NCBI RefSeq assembly: GCF_015207265.1 | Contig: NZ_JADEXE010000027.1 | Location: 1-39,284 of the forward strand | Reading direction: 5' to 3' | Source of the DNA: Nodosilinea sp. LEGE 07298 | GTDB lineage: Bacteria; Cyanobacteriota; Cyanobacteriia; Phormidesmidales; Phormidesmidaceae | Length of the DNA stretch: 39,284 nt | In this document: positions 6,800 through 26,222 of the stretch, piece after piece | How positions within the stretch are numbered: position 1 is the stretch's first letter | Layout of the letters: each line of letters opens with the position of its first letter | Position numbers and translations under genes: made by a program | The notes under the pieces: generated by a model | Seen by the model: only the letters and a program-made list of their open reading frames with translations | Told to the model about the DNA's origin: nothing | Database searches by the model: none

Positions 6800-7378
6800 C
6801 TAAAGATTAGACGAAGCCGCTCGCCGCTCCATTTCTGCCCGTAAAGCTTTCATCGTGTCGACTAGGCCCGCTTCAAACAAGTTATAAAACAGTGACTTAA
6901 AAGGGCCGACATCGGCTTCGGCCCGCACCTGCTGCGACAGCAGGCACACCAAACCGCGACCCAACGACGGCGGGGCGGCATCAATGCGCCAGTGGCCGTA
7001 CATATATTCAAGATTGCCTTCTAGCAGGCGAAAGCTAATCTGCTGCCCGTCTAGCTCCAGGTTTTCGGTCAGCACTTTAGATTCCATTGTGTGGAGCAAA
7101 ATGCGCCGCCTGTCAATCTGTTCGACAACGGTGCGATCGCCCTCGGTCTCAACCACCTGGCTTCTGACCACCGTGGGCAAGAATGTGTCAAAGCTGCTGT
7201 AGTCGGTCAGCACAGCCCACGCATCGGCATGAGAAACCGTGGTGGCAATCATCAAGCCATACTGACCCTGCCCGCCCTTGACCACGACATCGCGTTTGGC
7301 CAGGGTGGCCCAATCAGCATCGGTTAGTTTGGCCAGATAGGCCTCAGCCGACTGAACCTGACGGGATAGACGCGACAT
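6800..7378 (-). CDS. SRPBCC family protein (polyketide cyclase/dehydrase-like lipid-binding fold)
   Basis: This 192-residue soluble protein has the START/SRPBCC pattern. After an N-terminal helix there is a strand (DVVVKGGQGQYGLMIATTVSHADAWAVLTDYSSFDTFLPTVVRSQVVE), where ADAWAVLTDYSSFDTFLP is the hallmark helix-loop of polyketide cyclase/dehydrase proteins. Alternating beta strands follow, with a long C-terminal helix (FKSLFYNLFEAGLVDTMKALRAEMERRA). Such proteins bind hydrophobic ligands in a central cavity; the ligand here is unknown. ATG 7378 (MSRLSRQVQSAEAYLAKL) is preferred. Upstream in-frame sequence runs into the palindromic element at 7445-7511 and is not family-like. It is transcribed divergently from the HugZ-like gene across that element. 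Confidence 0.78.
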   Translation of the reverse strand: MSRLSRQVQSAEAYLAKLTDADWATLAKRDVVVKGGQGQYGLMIATTVSHADAWAVLTDYSSFDTFLPTVVRSQVVETEGDRTVVEQIDRRRILLHTMESKVLTENLELDGQQISFRLLEGNLEYMYGHWRIDAAPPSLGRGLVCLLSQQVRAEADVGPFKSLFYNLFEAGLVDTMKALRAEMERRAASSNL

Positions 7379-7444: not shown

Positions 7445-7511
7445 TGTATACCAAGTCCAGCTCGGAATCTGCAGTTTTCTCACAGGCAGAACTCCATTTC
7501 TGGACTTGGAT
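7445..7511 (-). repeat. 67-bp palindromic repeat element, copy A (MITE-like)
   Basis: Read on the minus strand, the element begins ATCCAAGTCCA and ends CTGGACTTGGTATACA, so CCAAGTCCAG and CTGGACTTGG form terminal inverted repeats; the inner halves are also partly complementary. By direct comparison, 56 of 67 positions match the copy at 25664-25730, with no gaps. It sits between two divergent genes, 31 bp before the HugZ-like ATG (7543) and 66 bp before the SRPBCC ATG (7378). There is no coding capacity for a transposase, so it would be non-autonomous if mobile. Confidence 0.8.
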
Positions 7512-7542
7512 GACGTTTATTTACAGCGTGCCCGCCATTGCC

Positions 7543-8046
7543 ATGCCCAGTTTTGATGCAGTTTTAGCGGCCTACCAGGGGCTACCCACCCGAGTGCACA
7601 GCCTGATGTTGAGCACTGTCAGTAGTGAGGGCTCGCCCCACGCCAGCTATGCCCCCTATGTTCTTGACGATAACCATTGGCTTTATATTTTCACCAGTGG
7701 CCTGTCGGCCCATACTCAAAACCTGCAGAACACGGGCCTAGCCAGCGTTCTACTAATTGAGGACGAGGCTGAGGCTGCTCAGGTGTTTGCTCGCCAGCGC
7801 ATTTCCTACGACTGTCAGGCCCAGCTGTTGCCCGGTGGCACCGCCGACTGGGAGGCTGTAGCCGATCGCTTTGAGCAGCGCTTTGGCGACATTATTACCA
7901 TGCTGCGATCGCTGGAAGATTTTCAAATTTTTTGTCTCAGCCCCCAGGGCGGGCGATTTGTGATGGGGTTTGGGGCCGCCTACGCCGTCGATGCTCAAAA
8001 TCTGAGCCAGTTGGTTGGCCCTCCCCAAACAGGGCCGGATAACTAG
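7543..8046 (+). CDS. HugZ-like pyridoxamine 5'-phosphate oxidase fold protein
   Basis: This 167-residue protein has the split-barrel FMN-binding fold of the pyridoxamine phosphate oxidase / HugZ (heme utilisation) group. Supporting segments are HSLMLSTVSSEGSPHASYAPYV, a typical first hairpin; WLYIFTSGLSAHTQNLQNTGLASVLLIEDE, the second strand pair with the conserved SxHTxNL-like loop; and the C-terminal GGRFVMGFGAAYAVD, which resembles the closing motif of HugZ-type proteins. Cofactor (FMN or heme) and substrate cannot be told from sequence. ATG 7543 is chosen because upstream in-frame codons translate the palindromic repeat. The stop overlaps that of the convergent EamA gene by 4 bp (CTAG). 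Confidence 0.78.
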   Translation: MPSFDAVLAAYQGLPTRVHSLMLSTVSSEGSPHASYAPYVLDDNHWLYIFTSGLSAHTQNLQNTGLASVLLIEDEAEAAQVFARQRISYDCQAQLLPGGTADWEAVADRFEQRFGDIITMLRSLEDFQIFCLSPQGGRFVMGFGAAYAVDAQNLSQLVGPPQTGPDN

Positions 8047-25547: not shown

Positions 25548-25663
25548 GCTATAGAAGTGCTATGGGATATTGATCCCAAGGCTTCTCCAAAAGAGCCTGT
25601 TAAACTACAAAAGGGCTAACTCATTTTTGCGAATAGCTACACTCAGGAGCTTAAGTAAACCAA

Positions 25664-25730
25664 ATCCAAGTCCAACAGTGCAGTTTTGTCGGTGGGAGAA
25701 CTCCAGATCCCGAGCTGGACTTGGTATACA
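25664..25730 (+). repeat. 67-bp palindromic repeat element, copy B (MITE-like)
   Basis: This is the same element as at 7445-7511, here on the plus strand, with 56 of 67 positions identical and no gaps. It begins ATCCAAGTCCA and ends CTGGACTTGGTATACA. The inner half-sites (GCAGTTTTGTC and GGAGAACTCC) also pair partly, so the RNA can fold into one long imperfect hairpin. The element ends 21 bp before ATG 25752, so a transcript starting upstream would carry it in the 5' untranslated region next to the GAGG ribosome-binding site. Confidence 0.8.
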
Positions 25731-25751: not shown

Positions 25752-26222
25752 ATGCAATCGCGGCAACGGCAAAATTCTGATGACTGGACCAAAGGGTCGA
25801 AGGGCATACTTAGCTTTTTCGTCCTTTTTCTGGCGGTAGGCTTTTTGCTATATCAGCTCTTCTCTAGCATCGTCCTCTCCTTCAACTATTCCTTTGGGGT
25901 TGGGGCTCGGGGCGTTGCCGCTGCACTTTTTCCATTCATCGTTTTGATCTACCTGGGGTTTATCGCCAGACTGCAGGTACCTACAAGAGAAAGCCGAGCG
26001 CCTATCATCAATAGCTTCATCGTCTTCCTCTTCTGGACAATGCTCGTCATCGGCATCGATATTGCCAAAGAGACGGCTTATTTTCCGGTTGAGGAACTGC
26101 TCTATTCGTCTACCCTATCGGCGATGCTGTGGCGCTACAAGTATCGAGGCTACTTCAAGGCGCTGCTAGCCTGCTGCTACGGCGTCATAGCCGGAGGGTT
26201 GGCGTCATTGATTATTTTCTAA
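25752..26222 (+). CDS. Four-helix membrane protein of unknown function, 156 aa
   Basis: I do not recognise this protein. From ATG 25752 (MQSRQRQNSDDWTKGSKG) it has a charged N-terminus and four predicted membrane helices at about 19-41, 52-71, 84-106 and 134-155. Two short cytoplasmic or periplasmic loops contain RLQVPTRESRAP and DIAKETAYFPVEELLYSS. A CC pair (ACCYG) lies in the last helix. The GAGG site seven bases upstream supports this start. The in-frame upstream codons from 25686 only translate the palindromic repeat and should not be counted. A clear terminator hairpin follows at 26250-26287. It sits between a small lipoprotein and the glycosyltransferase, with no evident functional link. 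Confidence 0.72.
   Translation: MQSRQRQNSDDWTKGSKGILSFFVLFLAVGFLLYQLFSSIVLSFNYSFGVGARGVAAALFPFIVLIYLGFIARLQVPTRESRAPIINSFIVFLFWTMLVIGIDIAKETAYFPVEELLYSSTLSAMLWRYKYRGYFKALLACCYGVIAGGLASLIIF

Follow-up and report, generated by a model that had tools for sequence, protein, structure and literature searches.

The window, by which the whole analysed stretch of 39,284 nucleotides from Nodosilinea sp. LEGE 07298 is meant, holds two short palindromic sequences that closely resemble each other, and the question raised by this locus is whether they represent a mobile element, a conserved hairpin or a fortuitous similarity and, if mobile, by which means such a short sequence would be moved.

Identity, boundaries and genic context of the repeat

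It had been reported in a preliminary description of this DNA that the two copies, here called A and B, match at 56 of 67 positions, gap-free and in opposite orientation, and recomputation gave the same figure, against a best chance match of 37/67 for copy A in 60 simulated windows (Markov-1). The inverted arms CCAAGTCCA/TGGACTTGG, described there as shared, were indeed found in both copies (those of copy A are also given as CCAAGTCCAG/CTGGACTTGG, with CCAAGTCCA/TGGACTTGG for copy B). The repeat thus stood, but its boundaries had to be redrawn, since two flanking bases too many had been included on the left and eight bases, with the consensus terminal GGTTTA, had been missed on the right. As set by the consensus and by empty sites, the unit is 73 bp long counting the terminal TAs, for an element of about 71 bp, and the window contains two copies only: copy A at 7447-7519 on the plus strand (66/73 identical to the consensus) and copy B at 25656-25728 on the minus strand (65/73), the two being identical at 59 of 73 positions from TA to TA. 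In copy A the left terminal repeat, TACCAAGTCCAG, occupies 7449-7460 of the plus strand, with its arm at 7451-7460, and the right end (7500-7517, plus strand) consists of the inner arm CTGGACTT, a 6-nt spacer and the terminal repeat (consensus GGTT).

Both copies lie directly upstream of start codons, as had been claimed, with a distance of 23 nt between the end of the copy and the ATG in each case (ATG 7543 and ATG 25752). Copy A is neighboured by a Polyketide_cyc (SRPBCC-type) family gene (6800-7378, minus strand) and a PNPOx_N gene (7543-8046, plus strand), which is HutZ/HugZ-like at scores below the NCBIfam cut-offs; these two genes diverge, in agreement with the SRPBCC/HugZ-like pair recognized earlier, and the same intergenic region is found without the element in four relatives. 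The copy also brings an ATG at 7510 (7510-7542) that is in frame with the PNPOx_N gene and is a putative start, 11 codons upstream of ATG 7543, the start common to the element-free relatives. The gene that begins 23 nt after copy B is a 156-aa ORF (25752-26222, plus strand) without Pfam or NCBIfam match. A crude ORF rule placed 5 host copies in divergent and 2 in tandem contexts (7 classified of 20 prepared) and, for 62 copies in named loci, counted 30 tandem, 17 divergent and 5 convergent contexts, 5 copies without a neighbour and 5 at an edge, counts which are too crude for any claim.

Copy number and taxonomic range

The view of a two-copy element specific to this lineage did not survive wider searches. 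Using copy A as query, 24 matches at E<=1e-3 were obtained in its own genome (7.25 Mb, 617 contigs), and matches occurred in 18 of the 38 genomes of the relatives set, namely its own, 16 of 22 same-genus relatives and one genome of another family (G024). Of the 388 genomes sampled from the class, 32 matched the consensus at E<=1e-4, comprising 19 of the 25 of the genus, 4 from other genera of the family and 9 from four other families, so that 13 of the 32 lie outside the genus and 9 of these outside the family. In Nodosilinea sp. P-1105 (G001), left ends number 116 and right ends 118, with control counts of 4 and 0 respectively. The exact 22-base core was present in 54 named stretches, 29 from Nodosilinea sp. 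P-1105 and 9 from Shackletoniella antarctica (G038 being a Shackletoniella bin), with Nodosilinea LEGE 06152, Tildeniella and Phormidium pseudopriestleyi among the remainder. Viral contigs yielded no exact match to the 22-base pattern, and plasmids and phages no BLAST match to the element. In being short, dispersed and multi-copy, the element is like a MITE.

Anatomy of the element

The consensus of 141 distinct ungapped copies reads TATACCAAGTCCAG, 39 nt, CTGGACTTGGATTAGGTTTA, and the ends of the element are TAWACCAAGTCCAG and CTGGACTTGGAYNNGGTTTA. This is also the sample used for covariation, drawn from 158 copies of which 13 gapped ones were dropped and 145 ungapped ones were reduced to the distinct sequences. 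Two pairs of terminal inverted repeats are present, TAWACC/GGTTTA and AAGTCCAG/CTGGACTT, and a 6-nt spacer is found in the right arm only, so that this arm exceeds the left by 6 nt. The related subfamilies of G178, from the same family, and of G159, from another, follow this plan in the order TAWACC, AAGTCCAG, a palindromic middle that varies, CTGGACTT, the 6-nt spacer (for example GGATTT, GGACAA or GGGCAA) and GGTTTA.

Empty sites and recent movement

Joined flanks were prepared for 20 host sites, 12 of which were searched for empty orthologues, a check proposed with the preliminary description. A clean uninterrupted orthologue was found at 9 of the 12, as expected for MITE insertion: at copy A, in four genomes (G007, G017, G039 and G009), and at L029, L030, L035, L028, L039, L031, L032 and L037, the last with a 14-nt gap in one flank. 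The junction dinucleotide of these nine empty sites is TA at seven, CA at one and GA at one. At the copy A site, G007 and G017 read GGTTGTATTTGCAGC where the window reads GGTTGTA, the element and TATTTACAGC; G009 has CA instead of TA. For copy B no clean empty site was found, since G007 and G017 keep the start of the neighbouring gene without the element while the far flank differs; L036 was ambiguous, and L043 had no uninterrupted orthologue among the matches listed.

Insertions of different age can be recognized. The element at L030 is present in the host genome (G000), G007, G017, G039 and G009 and absent from G008, G012, G003 and G013, and this insertion is therefore older than copy A. In P-1105, five identical 73-bp copies have different flanks, which indicates recent movement in that genome; none of the 15 intact ungapped copies of the host genome comes within 5% of the host consensus. 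The earlier proposal of a small non-autonomous mobile element is borne out by the number of copies, by the clean empty sites and by the occurrence of identical copies at separate loci, and the element is almost certainly a MITE.

Several individual copies may be recorded here. L042, L015-L018, L020, L021 and L024 represent one insertion (left flank gagagcgtta), old and retained in the host genome and seven relatives. In L025 (1503-1673; G024, of another family) the element is split by a nested short insertion that, by eye, apparently has inverted repeats of its own; in L109 (7463-7535) the left end of the copy is replaced by tandem GGACTTGGTGGTC-like units; and L359 (476-511, P-1105) is a 36-bp element made of the two ends only, a minimal deletion derivative.

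Target site and orientation

The target was analyzed in 197 sites with intact ends, which remained after 292 hits had been reduced to 215 distinct sites and 18 of these dropped. TA is found at both ends in 125 of the 197 and in 53 of 68 young copies. Among the young copies, G occurs at -1 in 1 and C in 38, C at +1 in 0 and G in 30, G at -4 and A at -3 in 30 each, T at +3 in 40 and C at +4 in 27, so that their target is close to GANC-TA-GNTC and near-palindromic round C-TA-G. Insertion of IS630 elements has a preference for CTAG, and the young copies show a TA target with this very preference; the symmetry of the target round TA suits an enzyme of the IS630 type.

When oriented by the element, on the other hand, the flanks are not equivalent, with T at +2 in 48% and A at -2 in 12%. 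None of 2000 random flips over the 197 sites was as extreme at positions 1-4; by group, the flips reaching the observed asymmetry numbered 5 of 2000 for G000, 0 for G001, 1 for G038, 0 for G178 and 0 for the pooled other genomes, and polarity is not significant in G159 (282/2000). The asymmetry is strongest near the junction, weak at positions 7-10 (75/2000) and absent at positions 12-15, 20-23 and 30-33. Orientation is thus strongly dependent on the target, and this remains an anomaly.

The terminal dinucleotides are a further case in point. Left and right differ in 71 of the 197 copies; the 33 copies with a non-TA right end have the same left end in only one case, and 39 of the 45 with a non-TA left end have TA on the right. 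Among young copies of G178 the dinucleotides disagree in 9 of 19, against 2.4 expected from mutation; for the young copies of P-1105, G159 and G038, mutation is a sufficient explanation. At L032 the junction is GA in G009; the right end is GA in both the host genome and G012, with TA on the left in the former and CA in the latter. At L035 the empty-site junction is CA, the right end CA and the left end CG; at both of these non-TA targets the right end alone equals the empty-site junction, and the disagreement between the ends remains an anomaly. A true 2-bp duplication of TA is a plausible, if doubtful, account of most copies, of which it is the majority state.

Search for a transposase and an autonomous partner

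The host genome carries an IS630 group element (L051, G000:C14; DDE_3, NF033545 transpos_IS630) of about 1150 bp with its transposase in two overlapping frames, and relatives of this element occur in G012, G009, G021 and others. The ends of the group share a 10-base core, TAYCAARTCC, with the repeat and differ in the rest; as in the repeat, the core lies just inside the flanking target bases. In 16 of 20 rows the group is flanked left and right by an identical TNA triplet, and two of the rows represent a single copy shown twice. Loci with the same TNA include L167, L183, L184, L192, L193, L168, L072, L076, L078, L171-L174, L185, L179 and L188, and at the exceptions, L169, L176, L069 and L194, the middle base differs. 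Since TNA is one base longer than the TA of the repeat, this transposase-coding group is a relative or possible helper rather than a demonstrated parent.

A search for an autonomous copy with the ends of the repeat gave none in the part examined (P-1105, G038, G178 and G159), which is a point against the explanation favoured below. The borders of DDE_3 loci were without these ends in P-1105 (3 of 3 matches), G038 (1 of 1), G178 (10 loci examined, 23 matches) and G159 (23 loci examined, 63 matches). Among the ends listed for P-1105, that is 100 of 116 left and 100 of 118 right ends, at least 61 left-right pairings fall at 30-120 bp, 54 of these at exactly 73 bp, at least 5 are spaced by 144-298 bp, and no pairing spans 500-3000 bp. 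An autonomous copy was likewise missing from 20 regions around ends that seemed to stand alone, which showed ordinary or degraded copies and one 36-bp derivative. Left ends without a recognized right end are L342, L344, L356 and L358, two of which are partial copies; the ORFs beside L342 and L358 include an alpha-amylase and no transposase. Near a lone left end, at 12-338 of L358 (P-1105), there is a small ORF with a match to Pfam TcA_TcB_BD. In G002 one and the same DDE_3 fragment recurs on many contigs, each time 21 bases in from the contig start, as an assembly-breaking multi-copy element.

Which explanation is favoured

The explanation favoured overall, at a probability of roughly 0.78, is that of a TA-targeting MITE moved in trans by an IS630-type transposase, of which the involvement of an IS630-type enzyme is the less certain part and may be called probable. 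Such a transposase (DDE) would act in trans on the element by recognizing its terminal repeats and joining them to TA, and the palindrome would descend from a master copy, with per-copy selection playing no part in keeping it. That the similarity of copies A and B arose by chance, or from two duplicated intergenic regions, might be thought from the window, which has two copies only; given a best chance match of 37/67 against the observed 56/67, flanks that do not align and the 24 matches in the host genome, this has next to no probability. A structured RNA or cis-regulatory hairpin that is conserved for its function would agree with RNA folds that beat those of shuffled sequences (copy A, z -4.6, 0/200 as good; copy B, z -2.4, 5/200), with both copies stopping 23 nt short of an ATG, and with arms that pair in 94% (shared stem) and 85% (inner stem) of cells, far above slid partners. 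The compensatory changes by which such a hairpin was to be recognized did not rise above the level of shuffles, however, and the paired columns covary no more than shuffles do: the inner stem is paired at 84.7% against 84.6% in shuffles, with 6 against 6.2 pairs showing two-sided change, and the shared stem at 94.2% against 94.2%, with 2 against 1.2. Because the covariation of stem pairs equals that of shuffles, conservation as RNA is disfavoured; moreover, no Rfam match above the gathering score was found in the window or the loci of four relatives, and orthologous places in relatives lack the element. A functional hairpin is consequently very improbable, and the palindrome looks inherited, not maintained by selection.

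A more serious competitor is a polar process without true target duplication, involving either a folded single strand (HUH/Y1) or a recombinase whose crossover core is a 2-bp TA, in which one terminal TA would come from the element and the other from the target. HUH/Y1 (IS200/IS605) elements make no target duplication, insert in polar fashion beside a fixed motif and have a hairpin at each end. In favour of such a process are the L032 junction, GA in G009 and matched by the right end only, the non-TA right ends that are nearly never duplicated (1/33), the polarity of the flanks (0/2000 flips over 197 sites) and the folding of four subfamily consensuses as single-stranded DNA (z -2.8 to -5.1). 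The flank asymmetry with respect to orientation also counts against the IS630-type reading, because a symmetric DDE complex would not be expected to give it. The target is, however, mostly palindromic round TA (-4 G/+4 C, -3 A/+3 T), as for a symmetric TA-targeting enzyme, L035 needs fewer changes under duplication, the mismatch exceeds mutation only in G178 among the four genomes tested, G159 is without significant polarity, and the element has one long palindrome rather than a hairpin at each end. The polar process is therefore judged unlikely. The wider proposition that a family of 71-bp folded elements spreads by polar insertion across several cyanobacterial families, with ends that the conserved right-arm spacer makes non-equivalent, an asymmetric target (about GAKC-NA-DTTC) that sets the orientation, terminal dinucleotides of mixed origin (the element for one, the target for the other), and an enzyme that is not of the plain IS630 type, is likewise rather doubtful; were it true, the apparent TA duplication would not be a true one.

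Relation to known elements and significance

A close parallel in the literature is RUP (repeat unit of pneumococcus), which according to PMC2229807 is 107 bp long, has terminal repeats highly similar to those of IS630-Spn1, is inserted at TA and has been suggested to depend for its movement on the IS630-Spn1 transposase acting in trans. A short repeat with terminal repeats, TA insertion and proposed IS630-type help in trans are common to both (PMC2229807); compared by description, the present element differs in its length of about 71 bp, in sharing only the 10-base core with the resident IS630 and in the mostly TNA flanks of the latter. For ERIC and Correia/NEMIS, Table 1 of PMC2229807 gives terminal inverted repeats, termini of TA and a duplicated target; these repeats resemble the element, by description only, in the first two features; their hosts, in the portions of PMC10969869 and PMC2229807 concerned, are enterobacteria and Neisseria, as opposed to cyanobacteria here. 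Nezha, a paper on which stands in the reference list of the review PMC10969869, and other cyanobacterial MITEs are alike in being MITEs of cyanobacteria. No earlier description of a Nodosilinea MITE was found in the open-licence PMC literature, and one may exist elsewhere. The element represents a new family within a well-known class of repeats.

In conclusion, these findings add to Nodosilinea and its relatives a MITE family that is compact, widespread and of recent activity. The presence or absence of its copies at orthologous sites provides potential species markers, and the insertion polarity, which can be put to the test, has a bearing on the choice of orientation by non-autonomous elements.
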